Positions 8,168 through 35,498 of a stretch of 37,389 bases of DNA are shown here, one piece after another. Both the position numbers and the translations under genes were made by a program. The notes below the pieces were generated by a model. It saw nothing but the letters and a program-made list of their open reading frames with translations, ran no database searches and was not told the DNA's origin. Origin of the DNA: Blastopirellula marina (GTDB taxonomy: Bacteria; Planctomycetota; Planctomycetia; Pirellulales; Thermoguttaceae); contig DYLS01000007.1 of NCBI GenBank assembly GCA_020721965.1, positions 33,101-70,489 of the forward strand, read 5' to 3'. Position 1 is the stretch's first letter, and the number at the start of each line of letters is the position of its first letter.

Positions 8168-9628
8168 ATGCCCGGCAAACGACGGCGATACCGCGAATTG
8201 GTCCGCGTCTTCGATGGCATGAGGCAGCCGGTCTATCTGGTCGATGACTCGTGGCGGATTCGCTATTGCAATGCCTCCTTGCTGACCTGGCTGGGATGTG
8301 CGGAGGACGCCATCTTGGACCGGCGTTGCGCGTACCACAGCGGGGCCATCGATCCCGGCGACGCCTTGGCGGCGGGGCTATGCCCTCCACCTGGCGCCAT
8401 GGAGGCCGCCGAGACCTTGGGCGAAATGGCCTGCCTGACGAGCGAGGGAAAGGTCGAGCGTCGGGCCGTGCGATTCTTGCGATTGGAAGCCCCCGGTTCG
8501 CATCACGTCCTATTGGCCATCGCCGAAAGCGAGGACCTTTGCGAGATGCCGCCACGTGAGGGGGCAGCGATCTGCTCACCCCGGGCCGCGCCGCCTTTGC
8601 CGTCTCCATCGGTCAAGCTGGACGAACGGGTCGCGTTGCAGTTGCATCGGGGCTTGCAAGAGTTCCGCGCCCGCCGCGAGGGCCGGGGCCTGCCCGCCGT
8701 TCTGCTGGGAAGCAGCCCCGCCGCGATGCGGTTGCGGTCGCAGTTCCGCGCGGCGTCGCGCACCGACGAGAACGTGCTGTTTGTCGGTCCGGAGGGCGTC
8801 GAAATGGGGGCGGTGGCGGTGGCCTTGTTCGACGCTTGGCGGAGCGTGCCCGAGCAGGCCCTGATCCCCATTCCCTGCCCAGAGTTGGATGCCGACGTCT
8901 TGGAAGATGTCCTCCAGGCCTTCCAGTCGGCCGGCGGCGAAAAAAACCGGCCCGACATGCTCCTTCTGGAAAACGTCGATCGCCTGCCCGACGACGCGCA
9001 GGCTATGCTCCGGCGTTGGATGGGCTCGCCCTGGTTTCGCATGCGGATCGTGGCCACGGCCCAGGAATCTCTGTTGCATCTGGCCGCGAAAGGGAGATTC
9101 AACCCGGAATTGGCGGGCGGAATCAGCGTCCTGGGCGTGGAGCTGCCGGAACTCAAGTCCCGCCGCGAGGACATTCCGCTTTTGGCCCAGGCCGTGCTGG
9201 AGGAGTGGAACGCCGAGGGACAGAAGCAGGTTTCCGGCATCACCCGGAATGCGCTCGACGTGCTGAGCGTGTACAATTGGCCGGGCAATCTCGACGAACT
9301 TCGGCGGACCGTGCGTTTGGCCCACGAAAAGGTCGCCACGCCGCTGATCGACGTCACGGACTTGCCGCGATCCTTGATCTCCGCGATCCGCCAGCAAAAG
9401 GAATCGCTGGCCCGCCCCACCAAGGTTTCGCTGACGGCCTTCTTGGCCGATGTGGAACGCGAGCTTCTGCGGCGGGCCTTGCGCCGGGCACGCGGAAACA
9501 AGACCTTGGCCGCCAAGATCCTGGGCCTATCGCGGCCCCGGCTCTATCGGCGCATCGTGCAACTCGGACTGAAAGAAGCCCTCGAAGACGAGCGCAACGT
9601 CGAACAACGGGATGCTACGAACCCCTGA
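8168..9628 (+). CDS. Sigma-54-activator-like protein with degenerate AAA+ domain (PAS, pseudo-AAA+, Fis-type HTH)
   Basis: 486 residues. N-terminal PAS-like domain (about 8-125: QPVYLVDDSWRIRYCNASLLTWLG), then a region aligned with the sigma-54 interaction AAA+ domain (about 190-400), then a Fis-type helix-turn-helix (GNKTLAAKILGLSRPRLYRRI, near 450-470). The AAA+ part is not catalytic as far as I can see: the Walker A position reads FVGPEGVEMGAVAVAL without the GK(T/E), no GAFTGA loop is present, and Walker B is only LLLENVDRL. The lid region is retained (SRREDIPLLA, YNWPGNLDELRRTV). It probably binds DNA and senses through the PAS domain but does not remodel sigma-54 polymerase. The ATG at 8168 follows GGGAGATGGCTGAGCG. 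The HDOD gene follows on the same strand after 337 bases. Confidence 0.82.
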   Translation: MPGKRRRYRELVRVFDGMRQPVYLVDDSWRIRYCNASLLTWLGCAEDAILDRRCAYHSGAIDPGDALAAGLCPPPGAMEAAETLGEMACLTSEGKVERRAVRFLRLEAPGSHHVLLAIAESEDLCEMPPREGAAICSPRAAPPLPSPSVKLDERVALQLHRGLQEFRARREGRGLPAVLLGSSPAAMRLRSQFRAASRTDENVLFVGPEGVEMGAVAVALFDAWRSVPEQALIPIPCPELDADVLEDVLQAFQSAGGEKNRPDMLLLENVDRLPDDAQAMLRRWMGSPWFRMRIVATAQESLLHLAAKGRFNPELAGGISVLGVELPELKSRREDIPLLAQAVLEEWNAEGQKQVSGITRNALDVLSVYNWPGNLDELRRTVRLAHEKVATPLIDVTDLPRSLISAIRQQKESLARPTKVSLTAFLADVERELLRRALRRARGNKTLAAKILGLSRPRLYRRIVQLGLKEALEDERNVEQRDATNP

Positions 9629-9965: not shown

Positions 9966-11633
9966 GTGTCCACGCTGGCGGACGATACGAACGATACCTT
10001 GAATCGTTTGGCGGGGATGGCCGGTCGCCTCTATTCCTTGCCTGGCGTGGCCATCAAAGTCCTGGAGCTGACGGATTCGCCTGACGCCGATTCGGCGACC
10101 CTCAAGGAGTGCGTCGAGAAGGATCCGGCCCTGACGGCCAAGATCCTCCGCGTGGTCAATAGCTCGCTCTATTCGCCCAGCCGTCCCATTGCGGATTTGG
10201 GTCAGGCCCTGGCTCTGCTCGGCTCCAAGCCGCTCAAGTTGCTGGTATTGGGCTTCAGTCTGCCTAGCGACCTGTTCGACGGGCTGGAAGCCAAGATTCT
10301 GGCCATGTACTGGCGGCACAGCTTGACCAAGGCCGTCGCCGCACGGGAGTTGATGGAAAAGGTGTTGCGCCGCCCGGGCGACGAGGCCTTCATCGCGGGC
10401 TTGCTGCAAGATTTGGGTATGCTGGTGCTGATTCAGACCCTGCAAGCACCCTATCAGCGGCTAGTGGAAAAGATCCGCGAATGCTGCGAGGACCTTTACG
10501 ATCGGGAACGAGAATTGATTGGCTTCGATCACACGGCCTTGTCGGCTAGGCTGCTGCGGCAGTGGCAAATGCCGGACTCGCTGATCGACGCGATCGAGCT
10601 GGAAGCAGGTGGGGAGCTGCGGGAATCCGGCCTGCCCCCCGCTGTGCACCGCGTTCTGGCCACGGCCGAGACCCTCGCCCGCGTCTTGGCCGATGACCGC
10701 CCCGACCTCTGGCCGCAGGCCGTGGAGCAACTGACCTCGCTGGGCAGTGACTCCCCGACCGCCCCCGACGCGTTGCTCCGCGAGATTCAGGAAAAAGTGC
10801 AGCAGTTGGCGGAGATCTTCGCGGTCCGGCTGCCGCCGCAGCGATCCGTGGAATCGATCCTGGCGGCAGCCCAGGTCAAGATGGCCGAGATGGCGGAGGC
10901 GATGCTCATGGGATGCGGCGGGGCGGGCGGCCGGGCTGCGCGGCACCCGCTGGACGCCGGACTCGACGACGCCCTGCGACAATGCGTGCAAGCCTTGCCC
11001 CGCGACCCCGCGGCAACCGGCGAGCGTGTGGCCAGGCGGGCGGGGCCGACCGCTCATTCCCCGCGTGAATCCGCCAGGCAGGCCCCCTCAACACCGCACC
11101 AACAAGCCACAGATGCGGCAGAGCCACGTCAGAAACAGGCCGCTCTCGCAGATCGTACCTTGGATCCCGGCTTGATGGGGCGCCTCCGCGCGGCAGTGGC
11201 CATGTGCCGCCGGGATCGAGTGGGATTGAGCCTGCTTTTGGCGGAATTCGCCGATGGACCGTCCCTATTGATGACGCTTGGCCCCCCGCGCCTTTCCGTG
11301 CTTCGCCGGATCGTGGAGGCCGCCTGCGAGAGCCTGGAACACGCCGGCAGCGAGATATTGCCCTGTCTCGATTTCGGTTGCGCCTGGATCTTGCCCGACT
11401 GCGACCGGAAAACGGCGGTCGAATATGGCTATCAATTGAATCGCGTGATCAGCCGCCTGCCGCGGGCGGAGTGGCCGACGGCCAAGGGTATCACGCTGCA
11501 AATCGGAGTAGCCTACGTGGCGACCCCCGCCCCGAATTTCCCGCCCGAGGACCTCTATACCGCCGCCCGCCGCTGCCTGGCAGCCTCGGCCGCGTCGGGG
11601 GGCAGTGTGGTGAAAAGCATTGAAATCTATTGA
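9966..11633 (+). CDS. HDOD domain protein with C-terminal degenerate GGDEF-like domain
   Basis: 555 residues, GTG start. Residues of about 12-215 form an HDOD domain, a catalytically inactive relative of HD phosphohydrolases used in bacterial signalling: LYSLPGVAIKVLELT, DPALTAKILRVVNSSLY (a hallmark), ALALLGSKPLKLLVLG and FIAGLLQDLGMLVLIQ. A long Ala/Gln/Pro-rich linker follows (about 325-395). Residues 400-550 look like a diguanylate-cyclase fold (VGLSLLLAEFADGP, IGVAYVATP, DLYTAARRCLAASAASGG), but the GGDEF signature position reads LDFGCAWIL, so cyclase activity is unlikely. It is probably a cytoplasmic signalling adaptor, perhaps working with the pseudo-AAA+ regulator upstream. Confidence 0.85.
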   Translation: MSTLADDTNDTLNRLAGMAGRLYSLPGVAIKVLELTDSPDADSATLKECVEKDPALTAKILRVVNSSLYSPSRPIADLGQALALLGSKPLKLLVLGFSLPSDLFDGLEAKILAMYWRHSLTKAVAARELMEKVLRRPGDEAFIAGLLQDLGMLVLIQTLQAPYQRLVEKIRECCEDLYDRERELIGFDHTALSARLLRQWQMPDSLIDAIELEAGGELRESGLPPAVHRVLATAETLARVLADDRPDLWPQAVEQLTSLGSDSPTAPDALLREIQEKVQQLAEIFAVRLPPQRSVESILAAAQVKMAEMAEAMLMGCGGAGGRAARHPLDAGLDDALRQCVQALPRDPAATGERVARRAGPTAHSPRESARQAPSTPHQQATDAAEPRQKQAALADRTLDPGLMGRLRAAVAMCRRDRVGLSLLLAEFADGPSLLMTLGPPRLSVLRRIVEAACESLEHAGSEILPCLDFGCAWILPDCDRKTAVEYGYQLNRVISRLPRAEWPTAKGITLQIGVAYVATPAPNFPPEDLYTAARRCLAASAASGGSVVKSIEIY

Positions 11634-11726: not shown

Positions 11727-11880
11727 GCCCACATCACGGCAGCGCTCCGGTTGCGAGTCGTTTTCGAGTGCATCGGAGTATCGCGACGGTTCCGCATCCT
11801 TTTCGCCCACATCAGAGCAGCGTCATGATGGCGCGTCGTTTTCGTGAACGTCATGGCAGAGCTACGGTTGCGACTGGCTT
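11727..11880. repeat. Imperfect 78-bp tandem repeat between convergent genes
   Basis: GCCCACATCA starts at 11727 and 11805, heading two diverged 78-base units. Within each, GCGAGTCGTTTTCG-like segments recur. The array runs into the last codons of the metzincin-like gene (stop at 11862). Confidence 0.55.
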
Positions 11881-14708
11881 TTGTCCGTCTCATGCCCCGC
11901 TTGACCCCCTGCCGCTTCCGCCGTAATCGCAATCGCGTGCCACTCCACGCGGGTTTGCGGTGACGCAGCCTCGGCCGTGATTCGCAGGGCCACCGTCCGG
12001 CCTCGCAGTGACGCCACATCGGCGGCCACGGTCTCGGGTCTTTCGCCCGTGCCGCGCCCTCGAAGTTGTGCCTCGCCGAGCACGTTGCCGTCCGCCTCCA
12101 AACGAATGCGTACCGGAGCGGAAGTCGGCGTCACCCGTGCCCGGACCACCAACTCGGCCGCATCGGCGGGGACGAAGAACCGTCGCGAGAGGACCAGGGG
12201 TCGATTGGCGAGGGCGGTGACCCAGCCCAATCGCAGCCGTCGCGGTTCTTCCACCACGGCATACGTCTCGAGCGCCCAGCCCCCCTCCGCGGGTGCCGGA
12301 TCGACCTGCCAACCGGTCCAGGCCGGCACGGCCAAAGGCCACCGCCTTTGGAGTTCGCGTTTCAACCACTGGCGGTCGAGGTGCAGCAGTGGCTCCCCCC
12401 AATCCACGCAGTCGCGAATGTTCCAGGGATCGGCAGCCGGCGGGCGATCCTGCTCCGCGTCTTCCGTGAACAAGACGAGGCGAGCCTGGGGATCGCCGGG
12501 CAGTGCCAAGCGCCCAGTCGCGGAGGTCTGCGAGCCGATCAAGAGCTTGCTCTGGAAAAGCGGCTGCTGAGAGGCCGAGGCGTAAATCACCCCTGCCCGC
12601 GCACAACCACCGTCCCCGGCCAAACGATCCAGCCCGATCCAGGATTCGAAGCTGGCCGGACTTGGAGGCAGGGAAAAGGCGATGCTCGCGGGAGCAGTCA
12701 GCGAAAGCCCCCATCCGAACGGGCGATTACCGACGGCCAACGGCTCGCCCGCCAGGTTGCGATCGATGCCCGGCCCCCAGTAACCGCCCAAGGCGGGATG
12801 CTCCTCATATTCCGCGGCCGGGAGAAGCGTGAGGGGAACTCGATGCGGGGCGAAGATTCTCCAGCCTTGGAGCGCCTGATACGGCACCCAAATCAGGTGC
12901 GGGGACCAGGCCGGGAGGATCGCATGATAGCCTTGCGGTGGCTGGTCGCCCTCCGGAAATGCCGCCAGAAACCGCCGCGACGTCGTGACGCGGGAACCGT
13001 CGGACAAGGTGTACTCGATCAGCAAATCATCTCCCGAGGGCGAAAGCGTTGCCCACTCTTGCAGCAATACTTCCCAGACATCCGCTTGGGGAAGGTGGAC
13101 CTCGGCAAGCGATGGCAAGTCGAGTTGCTGGACCCCATCATCGGTCAGGATGCGGACGCCCTCCGCGTTCCATTGAATCGAGCGGAAGGGGATCGGCCGA
13201 CCATCCGCGAGGAACACGGTCCCCGGCCGATACGGAACACCCAGCGGTCGGAGAATCACCCGCCGCAGCCAATGCGTCGCCACGTCAATGGCCGCGGCGC
13301 TGGCGTCGAAGGGAGACGTCAGCCCCACGCCGGGCTGAACTTCGAGGCGCAGCGGCAGGTACCGCGATTCGGCGACTTCGGCCGGTCGGATGCCGATTAC
13401 CCGGCCCGCTATTCGATCCCCGCCGAAGAACTCCACGCCCGATCCGGCACCGTCGGCGATGGCTGGTTGAGAGCGGCGCACCCAGGAAGCGGGGTTATTG
13501 GCGTCGAACAGCGGGCGGCCACCGATTTCCGGCGAGCCACCGGCAGGCCCCCAACCCGTCACGGCGTCTCCAGCCACCATGCTCCCGTCCGCAAAGGCTG
13601 CTAGGAATCGCCCCGCGGGGAGGGGCGGCCGCATCCAGGACTTGGCCAACCGCAAGGCGTCGGCATTCGGCTTCCCGCCCGTCCCGGCACGCTGGTAAAG
13701 CGAAAGCAAAAAGTCCCGCGTGCCGGAAGAGAAGGCGTCGAAATCCCCCGCGCCGCGGTAGCGCAGCTCGTCGGCCGTCAGATTGACGATCAACAGGTTG
13801 ATGGCATCCCACGGCTCGACGGCGGCTTTGGCGGCGTACTCCGCCGGCTTCAACTCGGGATTCATCACGCTTTCGCCCTCGGACAGGTCGAACGCCCCCA
13901 GCCAGTGCGCGAATTCGTGCAGCAAGAGCCACCACTGCTCCTGAGCCGTCATTTCCTGATGAACGTCGGGGACAAGAATGTGCGAGGCCAACGGCTCGCG
14001 GGGGGGATGATGCATGGCGGCCGAATAAGGAATCCGCAATCGGCTGCTAAACCCCAAGATCACCTGGGCCGCCTCGGCTGAGGTTTTGTTGCGAAACTCG
14101 GCCTCACGGGCCTCGCGGGACATCGATTCGTCGTTCGAGGACCGCCAACTTCCGACCGAAACGACCTGCAAGCTCACGCCGCAGGAGCGGGTCAGGGCCT
14201 CGGAGACCGCCGCCAACTGAGCACGCACGCGCGGTTCCCAAGCCGACGGCTGGGCGGGCTGGGCGTCGTCCACGAAAACCGCAACTCGTAGGATCACCCG
14301 GCTCGGCGGCGCCGCCAGTACCGCCGGAGTCAGCCACAAGGGCGGCCTCACGTGCCCCAGCGCCGCGACTTCCACGTGCAGCTCGCGACCGTTCCAATCG
14401 AGCCGGTGAATCTCCCAGGGCCGCAACGCCGTGACCGTCGAAACGCTATCGACGGCGACACGCGCCTGTATCGCATGGGGCACAAAGATCGCAACCGCAC
14501 GCCGCGGTGGCACCCGCCGCGTTGTCGAAGCCCCCCAAATCGGCTCGGTTGCCAGGACAGCCTCCCGATCGCAGTTATTTACGACCACGGCCACGGCTGC
14601 TTGGACGGTAGTCGCCGGGCCAATCGCCGGCCGGCACATCCCCACCACCCCCGCGGCGACAAGCACAGACAGGGGCAGCGAAACTTGTTGGTACGCCCTG
14701 CAAGACAT
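11862..14708 (-). CDS. Large secreted metzincin-like zinc protease with NPCBM-like C-terminal region
   Basis: 948 residues from the ATG at 14708 (GCGGGA lies eight bases upstream; a TTG at 14726 would add six residues). It has an N-terminal hydrophobic signal segment. The zinc site is HEFAHWLGAFD at about 264-274: HExxH followed by xxGxxD, the metzincin pattern with Asp as third ligand, as known for snapalysin-type enzymes. SVMNP follows at about 280, a good Met-turn. Ahead of it lies VILGFSSRLRIP, which fits the edge strand of the catalytic domain. The remaining 650 residues are beta-rich. The stretch around IAFSLPPSPASFESWIGLDRLAG resembles NPCBM galactose-binding modules, and a last beta-sandwich (VRARVTPTSAPVRIRLEADG) precedes a short hydrophilic tail. 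It probably acts outside the cytoplasm on glycoprotein or polysaccharide-bound protein. Protease activity is inferred from the motif only. Confidence 0.72.
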   Translation of the reverse strand: MSCRAYQQVSLPLSVLVAAGVVGMCRPAIGPATTVQAAVAVVVNNCDREAVLATEPIWGASTTRRVPPRRAVAIFVPHAIQARVAVDSVSTVTALRPWEIHRLDWNGRELHVEVAALGHVRPPLWLTPAVLAAPPSRVILRVAVFVDDAQPAQPSAWEPRVRAQLAAVSEALTRSCGVSLQVVSVGSWRSSNDESMSREAREAEFRNKTSAEAAQVILGFSSRLRIPYSAAMHHPPREPLASHILVPDVHQEMTAQEQWWLLLHEFAHWLGAFDLSEGESVMNPELKPAEYAAKAAVEPWDAINLLIVNLTADELRYRGAGDFDAFSSGTRDFLLSLYQRAGTGGKPNADALRLAKSWMRPPLPAGRFLAAFADGSMVAGDAVTGWGPAGGSPEIGGRPLFDANNPASWVRRSQPAIADGAGSGVEFFGGDRIAGRVIGIRPAEVAESRYLPLRLEVQPGVGLTSPFDASAAAIDVATHWLRRVILRPLGVPYRPGTVFLADGRPIPFRSIQWNAEGVRILTDDGVQQLDLPSLAEVHLPQADVWEVLLQEWATLSPSGDDLLIEYTLSDGSRVTTSRRFLAAFPEGDQPPQGYHAILPAWSPHLIWVPYQALQGWRIFAPHRVPLTLLPAAEYEEHPALGGYWGPGIDRNLAGEPLAVGNRPFGWGLSLTAPASIAFSLPPSPASFESWIGLDRLAGDGGCARAGVIYASASQQPLFQSKLLIGSQTSATGRLALPGDPQARLVLFTEDAEQDRPPAADPWNIRDCVDWGEPLLHLDRQWLKRELQRRWPLAVPAWTGWQVDPAPAEGGWALETYAVVEEPRRLRLGWVTALANRPLVLSRRFFVPADAAELVVRARVTPTSAPVRIRLEADGNVLGEAQLRGRGTGERPETVAADVASLRGRTVALRITAEAASPQTRVEWHAIAITAEAAGGQAGHETDKSQSQP

Positions 14709-15320: not shown

Positions 15321-15995
15321 GTGCCCACAACAGGTAGTATGCGGCAGGTGAGAAATCGGATAAAGCTGGCCGTACTGATCTCCGGCAGAGGTACCACGCT
15401 GAAAAACCTGATCGAGAAGATCGCGGCGAACGAGTTGCCCGCCGAAATCGTCACGGTCATCTCGAGCACCGAAACGGCTGGGGGCTTGCAGCACGCCCGA
15501 GATGCCGGCCTGCCCTGCCAGGTCGTGGACTGGGAGCGGCTCTCGACGGCCGAGGCGAGCCGGCAAGTCTTCGAGGCTTGCCGTATCGCAAAGGCGCAAC
15601 TGGTGGTTCTGGCGGGATTCTTGAAGCGATTGGAGATTCCGCCCGACTTCGAGTACCGCGTTATCAACATTCACCCTGCTTTGATACCGGCCTTTTGCGG
15701 GCAGGGCTTCTACGGCCGCCGTGTTCACGAGGCGGTGTTGGAGTATGGGGCCAAACTCACGGGCTGCACGGTCCATTTCGCGGACAACGAGTATGACCAC
15801 GGCCCGATCATCCTTCAGGAGGTGGTGCCCGTCTTGGACGACGACGCCCCGGAGACGCTGGCTGCTCGCGTGTTCCAGACCGAGTGCCGGGCCTATCCCG
15901 AGGCCATTCGGGCGATTGCCGAAAAGCGTGTTCAGGTGGAGGGAGCGCGGGTGCGAGTTCTGCCCCCGCCCCGTGCGGACTTGGAGGAGGTCTAG
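15321..15995 (+). CDS. purN: Phosphoribosylglycinamide formyltransferase (GART)
   Basis: Transfers the formyl group of 10-formyl-THF to GAR, the third step of purine synthesis. 224 residues. The start is the GTG at 15321, supported by GGAGGAG at 15311-15317; an ATG at 15339 is the alternative. Visible motifs are the phosphate-binding SGRGTTLKNLI (21-31), INIHPALIPAF with the catalytic Asn and His at about 116 and 118, and FADNEYDHGPII with the catalytic Asp at about 159. The active-site triad is therefore complete. About 200 bases downstream on the same strand is fhs, which makes 10-formyl-THF, so the two form a functional pair, probably as separate transcription units. Confidence 0.9.
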   Translation: MPTTGSMRQVRNRIKLAVLISGRGTTLKNLIEKIAANELPAEIVTVISSTETAGGLQHARDAGLPCQVVDWERLSTAEASRQVFEACRIAKAQLVVLAGFLKRLEIPPDFEYRVINIHPALIPAFCGQGFYGRRVHEAVLEYGAKLTGCTVHFADNEYDHGPIILQEVVPVLDDDAPETLAARVFQTECRAYPEAIRAIAEKRVQVEGARVRVLPPPRADLEEV

Positions 15996-16195: not shown

Positions 16196-17968
16196 ATGCC
16201 GCTCGATCCCACGAAACACGCCGACTGGGAGATTGCCCTGGATGCCGAATCCCGCATGAAAACCTGCCAACAGTTGGGCGAGGAGCTGGGATTGCTGCGA
16301 GAGGAGGTGTTGCCGCACGGGCACTACGTGGCGAAGGTGGATTACCTGGCGGTGATGGACCGCCTGCGGAACGCCCCCGACGGCAAGATGATCGAGGTCA
16401 CAGGGATCACGCCGACTCCATTGGGCGAGGGAAAATCGACCACCACGATTGGCCTGTTGCAGGGGATCGGGAAGCGCAAGCGGCGGGTCACGGCCTGCAT
16501 CCGGCAGCCGTCCGGCGGTCCCACCATGAATATCAAGGGTTCCGCGGCGGGAGGCGGATTGTCTCAGGTCATCCCCCTGGCCGAGTTTTCGCTGGGGCTG
16601 ACCGGAGACGTCAACGCCGTGATGAACGCTCACAATCTGGCCATGACCGCCTTGACCGCTCGTCTGCAACATGAGCGGAACTACGATGACGCCCGGCTGG
16701 CGAAAAGCAATTTGCGACGCCTAGATATCGATCCCACCCGCGTGGAATTGGGCTGGGTCATCGACTTCTGTGTCCAAGCTTTGCGGAACATCATCATCGG
16801 GATTGGCGGCCGCATGGACGGCTACATGATGCAGAGCCGCTTCCAGATCGCCAGTTCCTCGGAGGTCATGGCCATCCTCGCTATTTCGCAGAGCCTGGAG
16901 GACCTTCGCCGCCGGGTCGGTGACATCATTGTGGCATACGACAAGAAAGACCGGCCGATCACCTGCGAGGATTTGGAGGTGGGGGGCGCCATGGCGGCCT
17001 GGCTGCGGTCGGCCATCAATCCCAACCTGATTCAATCCATCGAGGGGCAGCCCTGTTTCGTGCATGCCGGTCCGTTCGCCAATATCGCGATCGGCCAATC
17101 TTCCGTGATCGGCGATCAGGTCTCTTTGAAGCTGGCCGACTACCACATCACGGAGAGCGGTTTCGGGGCGGATATCGGCTTCGAGAAGTTTTGGAACGTC
17201 AAGTGCCGTTACCTGGGCAAAACGCCGCACGTCTCGGTCATCACCACCACGATCCGCGGTTTGAAGCATCACGGAGTCGCGGCTGGGGCGCCGCCTTGCC
17301 CGCCGGGCCGACCCATCCCCAGGGCCTATTTCGAAGAGAATCTGTCCTGGCTCGAGGCCGGGGCCGCCAATCTGCTGCACCATATTCGGACGGTAAAAAA
17401 GTCGGGCATCCACCCCGTGGTGGCCATCAACGTCTTCCCCACCGATACCCAGGCCGAAATCCGACTCCTGAAGCGGATCGCGGAGGTGGCCGGGGCCCGC
17501 GTCGCCGTCTCCAATCACTGGCGCTACGGCGGTGACGGGGCCTTGGAACTCGCCGACGCCGTGCTCGATGCCTGCGCGGAGCCGGTCCGCTTCCAATACC
17601 TCTACGAATTGGATACGCCCCTCAGCGAACGGATCGAACGGATCGCCCGGGAAGTCTACGGCGCCGATGGCGTGGAGTACACTCGCGAGGCCGAGGCCAA
17701 GCTCCGCCTCTTCGAGGACAACGAAAAATACCGCGACTTCGCCACGATGATGGTGAAGACGCACCTCAGCCTGACGCACGACCCCACCGTCAAGGGCGCA
17801 CCCAAGGGCTGGACGCTCCCTATCCGCGACATCCTGGTCTATAACGGGGCCAGATTCCTCTGCCCCATGGCGGGCGAAATTTCCTTGATGCCTGGAACCG
17901 GCTCAGACCCCGCCTTCCGCAGGATCGACGTGGACGTAAACACCGGCCGCGTCAAAGGTCTGTTCTAA
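16196..17968 (+). CDS. fhs: Formate--tetrahydrofolate ligase (10-formyl-THF synthetase)
   Basis: ATP-dependent ligation of formate to THF, giving 10-formyl-THF for purines and initiator tRNA, or for C1 assimilation in acetogenic-type metabolism. 590 residues against about 560 usual. The P-loop [14 protein letters not shown] is at 71-84; other family signatures are [52 protein letters not shown] and the C-terminal [16 protein letters not shown]. The start [14 protein letters not shown] matches known N-termini. There are no obvious defects. Together with purN, gcvT and SHMT it gives this window an unusual share of folate C1 genes, although they are not one operon. Confidence 0.95.
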
Positions 17969-33640: not shown

Positions 33641-34036
33641 GGCGTAGGTAATGCATCTGGACTTTTGCAAATTGGGGGCACAAGCCCTTCTAGGCCCCTA
33701 GGAGAGGGTTAGCCTGTGGGCAATTAGGCGCGAAAATAGTTTGCCTTGTTTGTCTGATTTGACCAAACCCTCACCCCTTGGCCCTCTCCCAGAGGGAGAA
33801 GGGAGCAGTTTGCAAAAGTCCAGATGCATGATAAACGGCAAGGTGAGAAAGGCCGTAGAGTGCCGTGCCTTTTTCTCGAATCGCGAAAAGATGCGACGGC
33901 ACTCCTTCAACCACCCAATCAGTCGCTCCAGAATGTTCCGCCGCCGGTACGCCTCGGGGTCAAAGGGCACCGGGCGACCGCGTCGCTTCTTTCGAATCCC
34001 TCGGCTTTCTCGTGACGCCCGAAAAGCAGGCATTGT
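33641..34036 (-). pseudogene. C-terminal remnant of an IS5-type transposase, interrupted by a MITE
   Basis: On the minus strand, about 34036-33824 encodes IRKKRRGRPVPFDPEAYRR, NILERLIGWLKECRR and IFSRFEKKARHSTAFLTLPF, the C-terminal end of an IS5-family DDE transposase (the ERxxGWLK pattern carries the last catalytic Glu). The earlier two thirds of the gene are missing. At residue FIMH the family 3 element begins. Removing the element and one ATGCAT copy restores FIMHYLRLP, a more natural transposase C-terminus. The upstream break lies close to the start of the sigma-54 activator at 34077. Confidence 0.75.
33656..33826 (+). mobile_element. MITE family 3, copy H (about 171 bp) inside the transposase remnant
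   Basis: CTGGACTTTTGCAAA at the left and TTTGCAAAAGTCCAG at the right form a perfect 15-bp inverted repeat. ATGCAT abuts both ends; since it is a palindrome it may be a 6-bp target duplication or part of a 21-bp inverted repeat. The body contains the hairpin-forming CCTTGGCCCTCTCCCAGAGG. It is homologous to copy G at 20802-20967. Confidence 0.82.
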
Positions 34037-34076
34037 GCACGATCCACTGCCGCGCATCGTGGCAACATGCACGATT

Positions 34077-35498
34077 ATGAGGTATGCTGAGCAAAGGCAT
34101 GGTGCAAGGACCCGGGTTAAGGAAGCGAACAAGTTGGACGAATCCAAGGAACTAAAGCAACGCGAAATCGCCATCCTCGATTCCGTAAACGAAGGCGTAT
34201 TTACGGTCGATCGGAACTGGCGGATCACGGCCTTCAACCGGGCTGCCGAGCGGATTACGGGGGTGCCACGGGACCGCGCGATTGGGAGCCTATGTTGCGA
34301 CGTCTTTCACGCCGATATCTGCGAGAGCAATTGTGCTTTGCGGCGGACCATGACTGCCGGCCGGCCGGTCGTCAACGCCACGGCCCATATTATTAACCAG
34401 CTAGGCCAGCGTATCCCAATACGTATCTCCACGGCCCTTTTGAAGGACGGCGAGGGAGCCGTCGTTGGTGGGGTCGAGACGTTTCAGGACCTGACGCAGG
34501 TTGAACAACTTCAAAAGGAGCTGGAATCGCGATACACGTTCGAGGACATCATTGGCCGAAGCCCAGCCATGATGCGGCTTTTTGAAGTCCTGCCGCAGAT
34601 CTCGGCTAGCGCCAGCACCGTGCTGATCGAGGGGCCGAGCGGCACGGGAAAGGAGCTATTTGCTCGGGCCATTCACAACCTTTCGCCCCGAAAACGAAAG
34701 AAGTTCATTGCCGTAAATTGCGCCGCGCTGCCCGACACACTATTGGAGAGCGAATTGTTTGGGCATAAGGGCGGTGCGTTTACCGACGCCAAACGCGACA
34801 AACCGGGAAGGTTCATGCTAGCCGACGGCGGCACGATCTTCCTCGACGAGATTGGCGATATTTCGCCCGCGATGCAGGTACGGCTCCTACGAGTCTTGCA
34901 AGAGCGGGTCATCGAGCCGTTGGGCAGTGTTCAAGTGATTCCGGTCGATGTTCGCATTGTGGCCGCCACCAACAAGAATCTTGCCGCTTTGGTCCGCGCC
35001 GGGACGTTCCGCGAAGACCTGTATTATCGAATCCGCGTGATCCACTTGAATCTGCCCAGCTTGTCCCAGCGGCGCGAAGACATCCCTTTACTGATTAGCC
35101 ACTTCATCGCCAAGTTCAATCTTCTGCAAGGGAAAGATATCGTGGGCGTCTCGGACGAGGTCTTGGCGCGGTTGATGGAGCATGAGTATCCGGGCAATGT
35201 CCGCGAGTTGGAGAACATCATCGAGCATGCGTTTGTTCTCTGCCGGGGCAGCATCATCGAGTTGAATCACTTGCCGCCGGAATTGCGCCCCGCCAGGGCG
35301 CTCGGCCGGGACGAGTCCCGTCCCATGAGCCTTTCGGCCATGGAGAAATTCTTGATTTTCGAAACGCTTCAGCGTCACAAAGGGAACCGCAAGGCCGCCG
35401 CCAAGGATCTGGGCCTCAACGTCAGCACCCTTTACCGGAAGATCAAGAGGCTGGGGATCGAATTACCGAAGGTCGATGGTCGGGGCCGCCGGCGGTAA
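34077..35498 (+). CDS. Sigma-54-dependent activator with Cys-rich PAS domain
   Basis: 473 residues from the ATG at 34077; a TTG at 34134 (before DESKELKQREIAILD, preceded by AAGGAAG) is also possible. PAS domain at 34-150 with cysteines at about 73, 74, 82 and 86 (SLCCDVFHADICESNC), possibly a redox or Fe-S sensor. AAA+ domain: Walker A GPSGTGKE (186-193), GAFTDA (233-238) in place of GAFTGA, Walker B TIFLDEIG, arginine-finger region FREDLYYR (311-318), lid YPGNVRELEN. The Fis-type helix-turn-helix is at 436-459 (NRKAAAKDLGLNVSTLYRKI). It should activate sigma-54 promoters. GAFTDA occurs naturally in other activators, so function is likely retained. The radical SAM gene follows. Confidence 0.92.
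   Translation: MRYAEQRHGARTRVKEANKLDESKELKQREIAILDSVNEGVFTVDRNWRITAFNRAAERITGVPRDRAIGSLCCDVFHADICESNCALRRTMTAGRPVVNATAHIINQLGQRIPIRISTALLKDGEGAVVGGVETFQDLTQVEQLQKELESRYTFEDIIGRSPAMMRLFEVLPQISASASTVLIEGPSGTGKELFARAIHNLSPRKRKKFIAVNCAALPDTLLESELFGHKGGAFTDAKRDKPGRFMLADGGTIFLDEIGDISPAMQVRLLRVLQERVIEPLGSVQVIPVDVRIVAATNKNLAALVRAGTFREDLYYRIRVIHLNLPSLSQRREDIPLLISHFIAKFNLLQGKDIVGVSDEVLARLMEHEYPGNVRELENIIEHAFVLCRGSIIELNHLPPELRPARALGRDESRPMSLSAMEKFLIFETLQRHKGNRKAAAKDLGLNVSTLYRKIKRLGIELPKVDGRGRRR

Follow-up and report, generated by a model that had tools for sequence, protein, structure and literature searches.

The window analysed here, a 37,389-nucleotide stretch from Blastopirellula marina, carries on its minus strand an open reading frame that starts with ATG and encodes 948 amino acids followed by a stop codon; the original prediction for this locus, made from the sequence alone, had given no strand. 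Features of the gene, of the encoded protein and of the adjacent genes are collected in Table 1. To judge from a Sec signal peptide predicted by eye and from the model, the protein is probably exported. The gene is flanked by an HDOD-domain gene and a PurN-type formyltransferase gene, and the 590-residue frame beyond the latter is read from its sequence as a formate-tetrahydrofolate ligase. Two sigma-54-activator-type regulators also lie in the window, one just upstream of the HDOD gene (8168-9628, plus strand) and one further away (33741-35498, plus strand).

Table 1 The metzincin-like gene, the parts of its protein and the neighbouring genes (window positions)
Feature	Position	Strand	Basis
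ORF, 948 aa, probably exported metzincin-like / CBM51-containing protein	11862..14708	-	ORF translation
Residues 1-37, N-terminal hydrophobic helix, probable Sec signal peptide	14598..14708	-	sequence by eye; model helix 5-24
Residues 38-116, small all-beta N-terminal domain	14361..14597	-	AlphaFold2 model
Residues 134-322, metzincin-fold domain (adamalysin-like)	13743..14309	-	ADAM17 3lgp_A match; relatives pass Reprolysin_5 / Matrixin cut-offs
Residues 264-274, HEFAHWLGAFD: His264, Glu265, His268, Gly271, Asp274 (third-ligand position)	13887..13919	-	script
Met282 of the Met-turn (SVMNP, residues 280-284)	13863..13865	-	script; alignment
Residues 365-934, module B, occurring also without the metzincin domain	11907..13616	-	matches in related genomes
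Residues 622-776, CBM51/NPCBM domain within module B	12381..12845	-	Pfam 645-754; structure match 2vmi
HDOD-domain gene, on one side of the window gene	9966-11633
Formyltransferase gene, PurN type, on the other side	15321-15995
590-aa ORF, beyond the formyltransferase gene	16196-17968

The zinc-site motif HExxHxxGxxD and the Met-turn that had been proposed for this protein were confirmed by script, as HEFAHWLGAFD and SVMNP. The motif fits the HExxHxxGxxH-or-D consensus of metzincins (clan MA(M)), as quoted in PMC12237041. A six-frame translation of the window contains HExxHxxG, continued three residues on by H, D or E, only this once; one further HExxH lies in another frame and lacks the rest of the motif. 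A chance motif was considered and ruled out, since both histidines, the glycine and the methionine share alignment columns with relatives, Met282 being aligned with Met in all 36 intact stand-alone relatives, and a confident helix of the AlphaFold2 model (residues 255-269) holds the HExxH. Glu265, the general base, is present in the window copy, which is thus not a pseudopeptidase by loss of the general base. Gly267 of HExGH is replaced by Ala.

The AlphaFold2 model of the window protein (mean pLDDT 88.8, 59 sequences in the alignment) has block means of 95 at residues 261-270 and 91 at residues 271-280. Aligned with VIA-align, its residues 134-322 match ADAM17 (3lgp_A) with a Z of 15.2 and an rmsd of 2.8 over 181 residues, which bears out the predicted metzincin fold; the model of a stand-alone relative, L036, gave a Z of 17.9 and an rmsd of 2.3 over 180 residues, and it also shows a region like the small N-terminal all-beta domain of the window protein. 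A PDB sequence search with the single window protein returned a best E of 1.9, to an unrelated entry. A search with the domain profile retrieved matrix metalloproteinases (best E 1e-4), aligned across the active site and the Met-turn. Scanning the window protein against Pfam at E up to 10 yielded no match other than NPCBM, and so no Reprolysin profile match, and the NCBIfam profiles gave no match to it. Among ten relatives scanned, four passed the Reprolysin_5 cut-off and seven that of Matrixin (PF00413); the family therefore sits between the M12 and M10 profiles. Both the predicted fold and the motif indicate that the site is part of a real metzincin domain. In the L036 model, the strand before the active-site helix is itself preceded by a short one (229-231), which is absent from the window model. 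Because the edge strand of metzincins lines the substrate cleft, the cleft of the window protein is probably remodelled, as far as the models indicate.

The NPCBM-like module of the original prediction was likewise recovered, as PF08305 at residues 645-754, with a score of 29.4 bits where the cut-off is 23.9. In fold, residues 622-776 match the CBM51 of a Clostridium perfringens GH95 protein (2vmi; Z 20.2, rmsd 1.6, 137 residues aligned). Many Pirellulales proteins carry the surrounding module B but no metzincin domain. When 27 of these were scanned, NPCBM was found in 24, Trypsin_2 in 7, PDZ_2 in 7 and F5_F8_type_C_2 in 2. Trypsin_2 stands in frame with module B in L014, L016, L056 and four further proteins of this set. 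Since the module is joined to Trypsin_2 in other proteins and to a metzincin here, the domain matches indicate that it is a scaffold shared by two types of protease domain that are unrelated to each other. Through its CBM51 module, the window protein could plausibly be aimed at glycan-associated proteins, as originally suggested.

We then compared the protein with its relatives. Matches were present in 49 of 60 related genomes and were of three kinds, namely the metzincin domain alone (query residues ~30-350), module B alone (~365-934), and both fused. The stand-alone set comprises 38 proteins with only the metzincin domain, all those among the matches listed for the 60 genomes, and 36 of them carry HExxHxxGxxH and a Met-turn. 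The exceptions are L026 (1435-3183, plus strand, genome G047), which has SLLLRFLGAVE in place of the zinc motif and is accompanied in the same genome by an intact copy, L037, and L049 (1290-5168, plus strand, contig G040:C35), a 1293-residue frame in which a metzincin domain with HALGHYLGAAH, Ala replacing the catalytic Glu, is joined to O-antigen ligase (Wzy_C) and VanZ domains. Of the intact stand-alone proteins, L031 comes from the window's own genome. A scan of GTDB contigs, whose pattern fixed motif position 2 to E or Q and which is unbiased for the third ligand only, found 80 named loci overlapping the 38-protein set; 74 of them are stand-alone, every one with His in the third-ligand position, and the six fused ones vary. 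Nearly all 80 are labelled planctomycetes, and one, L130, is labelled Nealsonbacteria. Only 3 of 294 genomes sampled across the phylum had a match at 1e-15, and the family therefore appears to be concentrated in the order Pirellulales. A distant relative, L173, occurs in a genome that shares only the phylum with the window and lies outside its class (G507); its HELAHVFGAFH and Met-turn-like SIMN hint at transfer or at a wider family. L036 (612-2429, minus strand) and other stand-alone relatives end in a helical tail of about 250 residues with a weak match to the YfiM lipoprotein (E 1.9e-4 for L036, below the cut-off). In the parts of the literature available to us on planctomycete metzincins or metalloproteases with NPCBM, on pseudo-metalloproteases and on inactive metzincins with a CBM, we found no description of this family.

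The search for fused proteins covered 396 genomes from the order and 119 from the family. Nine complete proteins joining the metzincin to the CBM51-containing module were recovered, every one in the window's own bacterial family. Two partial ones came in addition, one cut by the start of its contig (G003) and the other a C-terminal piece at the end of a contig (G001). Outside that family, no match among those listed at 1e-45 for the 396 genomes of the order starts before query residue 354. G224 was rejected as a fused protein in spite of a suggestive score; only query residues 350-786 match there, and its N-terminal part has no match to the metzincin domain. The nine motifs are HEFAHWLGAFD (window), HSFGHFLGAVD (G002), HQLGHYLGAVH (G032), HELGHWLGAVH (G021, G378), HQLGHWLGAVE (G033, G120, G201) and HSLGHYLGGVH (G026), so that the third ligand is His in four, Asp in two and Glu in three. 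In the tree, a branch with support 98/95 (100/95 without the motif columns) sets all nine apart on one side. Support for grouping the window protein with that of G002 is 99/98 (100/98 without those columns). On the evidence of these sequences, a single fusion of a Pirellulales metzincin to a CBM51-containing module is the best explanation for the clade. The order of events within it is uncertain, since support is weak for grouping the window pair with an intact pair (L004, L066): 92/64 and, in the tree without motif columns, 68/42. The end branch of the window protein is long (1.74). By parsimony, the catalytic Glu changed at least twice if regain is allowed and at least three times if only losses are, as read from the tree, and its replacements differ (Ser, Gln).

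The surroundings of the fused genes were compared as well. Homologues of the HDOD, formyltransferase and 590-residue genes lie near the fused gene of G002 (L062), and an HDOD homologue adjoins that of G003 (L089); the window's genome, G001 and G003 belong to the same genus. Among the nine fused-gene neighbourhoods, no conserved neighbour was found outside the window's genus, and neighbours are common to some loci only, for example to G033, G120 and G201 or to G032 and G026. A tblastn search with the window protein against 72,556 plasmid and 50,697 phage records found nothing, and these searches lend no support to a mobile element, plasmid or phage origin of the gene.

To see what the fusion clade keeps, we defined family positions as those where a single residue accounts for 90% or more of the 36 intact stand-alone sequences. 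H264, H268, G271, M282, D301, N304, W157, W188, G219, L262, L334 and Y338 are kept in all nine fused proteins, and R164, G234 and E248, near-invariant in the stand-alone family, are lost from all nine. Between these extremes, Glu265 is kept in three (lost in six), His274 in four, E260 in two and R283 in three. Despite the missing general base, the metzincin domain is under purifying selection in the three Gln-type relatives: NG86 dN/dS for their three pairs is 0.078, 0.075 and 0.070, in each case below that of the rest of the protein. For comparison, the domain gives 0.075 in an intact stand-alone pair (L035, L023) and 0.133 in the intact fused pair (L004, L066). With dS near or above 1 in several pairs these values are rough, and they cover the Gln-type relatives and the two intact pairs. 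They suggest that the domain is maintained by selection where the general base is gone.

This distribution bears directly on the proposal that the Asp third ligand marks a new metzincin family. His occupies the position in 36 of the 38 stand-alone relatives fetched, in 74 of 74 from the GTDB contigs and in 4 of the 9 fused proteins. Asp is found in the window protein and in its G002 homologue, and this pair sits inside the fused clade in both trees, where the catalytic Glu has also been lost from most members. We thus regard a separate family with ancestral Asp as scarcely credible. A sequencing error is an unlikely source of Asp274, because the fused homologue in G002, a single-contig genome of the same genus, also has Asp there. 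The alignments and trees indicate instead that Asp274 arose secondarily, within a small clade shedding catalytic residues. Nor is such an Asp, which had been called rare outside snapalysins, confined to them: it is described for thuringilysins and igalysins as well (PMC12237041), for Asp-zincins (PMC3890501) and for ADAMDEC1 (PMC5174729, PMC4885070). Membership of the window protein in the snapalysin (M7), igalysin (M64) or another Asp family was considered and rejected: there is no Pfam match, and the relatives have His. The M7 profile matched neither the window protein (E up to 10) nor any of the ten relatives (E up to 1); no M7 or M64 entry appeared among the VIA-align matches listed, which carries no weight against either family. 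The window protein has the Asp third ligand in common with snapalysins, igalysins and Asp-zincins; it differs in that its relatives match Reprolysin_5 and Matrixin, and igalysins carry an additional residue ahead of the Gly according to PMC12237041.

Precedents come from the adamalysins. Human ADAMDEC1 (decysin-1, M12B) is, like the window protein, an adamalysin-type metzincin with a third-ligand His-to-Asp change within a His family; it is described as the only mammalian ADAM protease with this change and as proteolytically active in vitro (PMC5174729), an activity called "dampened" in the title of a paper cited there. The likeness is one of shared fold, ADAMDEC1 being an animal protein with a short disintegrin-like domain and no CBM. 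Inactive ADAMs (ADAM7, 11, 22, 23, 29 and others) resemble the fused clade in keeping the metzincin fold and the Met with Glu or ligands changed, examples in a table of PMC11266112 being HQLGHNLGMQHD for ADAM7 and also HHLGHNLGMNHD; the window copy differs from them in being bacterial, in keeping Glu and in its other partner domains. In architecture, the protein is comparable to AMUC_1438, described as a metzincin O-glycopeptidase with a C-terminal NPCBM (PMC9513282): both have an exported metzincin followed by NPCBM/CBM51, but the third ligand of AMUC_1438 is His, and the window protein has about 250-300 more residues between the two domains.

What, then, does the window protein do? At a probability of roughly 60%, resting on sequence, models and analogy, we favour a dampened protease or a non-proteolytic recognition module on a glycan-binding scaffold. 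Some observations speak against this: the window copy keeps Glu265, the fused pair L004 and L066 is fully intact, and Asp serves at the zinc site in ADAMDEC1, in Asp-zincins (PMC3890501) and in igalysins (PMC12237041). Because of the retained Glu and the intact pair, activity in the fused branch may persist. The corresponding alternative is an active Asp-type metzincin with zinc bound by H264, H268 and D274, with E265 as the water-activating residue and with module B targeting the enzyme to glycoproteins, in the manner of AMUC_1438. The presence of Glu265, both histidines, Gly271 and the Met-turn in an intact predicted fold fits it, as do the same domain order in AMUC_1438 (PMC9513282) and the Asp third ligands reported in active enzymes (PMC12237041, PMC5174729). 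However, the nearest relative, of the same genus, lacks the general base, R164, G234 and E248 are gone throughout the fused clade, and the window copy itself has Ala for Gly267 and sits on a long branch; we therefore consider it rather unlikely. Decay of the gene, with no role left for the metzincin domain, would account for the long end branch and the family-invariant residues lost in the window copy. It is hard to reconcile with a frame open across 948 codons, a confident fold and the presence of a homologue at full length in G002, a genome on a single contig. The Gln-type relatives, in which purifying selection acts strongly on the domain, also speak against decay, and we judge it very improbable.

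Under the favoured reading of a dampened or non-proteolytic module, an ordinary Pirellulales metzincin with HExxHxxGxxH and a Met-turn was joined by one fusion to the CBM51-containing module. The cleft was then probably remodelled, and the catalytic Glu and third His were replaced in most lineages, with the scaffold, the first two histidines and the Met-turn retained. The computations themselves establish the domain composition, the descent, which residues were kept or lost and the purifying selection on the domain in three Glu-less relatives; export, the binding of zinc and glycan, weak or absent proteolysis and the recognition role are inferences. Since the window copy has Glu265 and a potentially metal-binding Asp274, zinc is probably still bound, and any protease activity would at best be dampened. 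The protein would most likely serve mainly in recognition, in which module B may hold the glycan and the metzincin domain may bind a protein or glycosylated peptide at that glycan, with slow cleavage or none.

From sequence and model, then, the window protein seems to have branched off recently from an ordinary protease family and to be losing its ability to cut; it does not look like a new class of protease. More tentatively, at somewhat less than even odds, we propose that the clade is a bacterial lineage of zinc-keeping pseudo-metzincins acting as glycan-anchored receptors, in which selection kept the protease fold and a metal site with His, Asp or Glu as third ligand and the general base was discarded. 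A large CBM51-containing module is paired with a metzincin in this one clade and elsewhere with trypsin-like and PDZ domains. The would-be Asp-metzincin family is removed, and in its place stands a set of nine natural homologues that share one scaffold and among which the catalytic Glu and the third ligand vary step by step. With these it would be possible to measure how protease function is lost and how much change the metal site tolerates. If the pseudo-metzincin proposal is true, they would form a natural stepwise series from protease to binding module.
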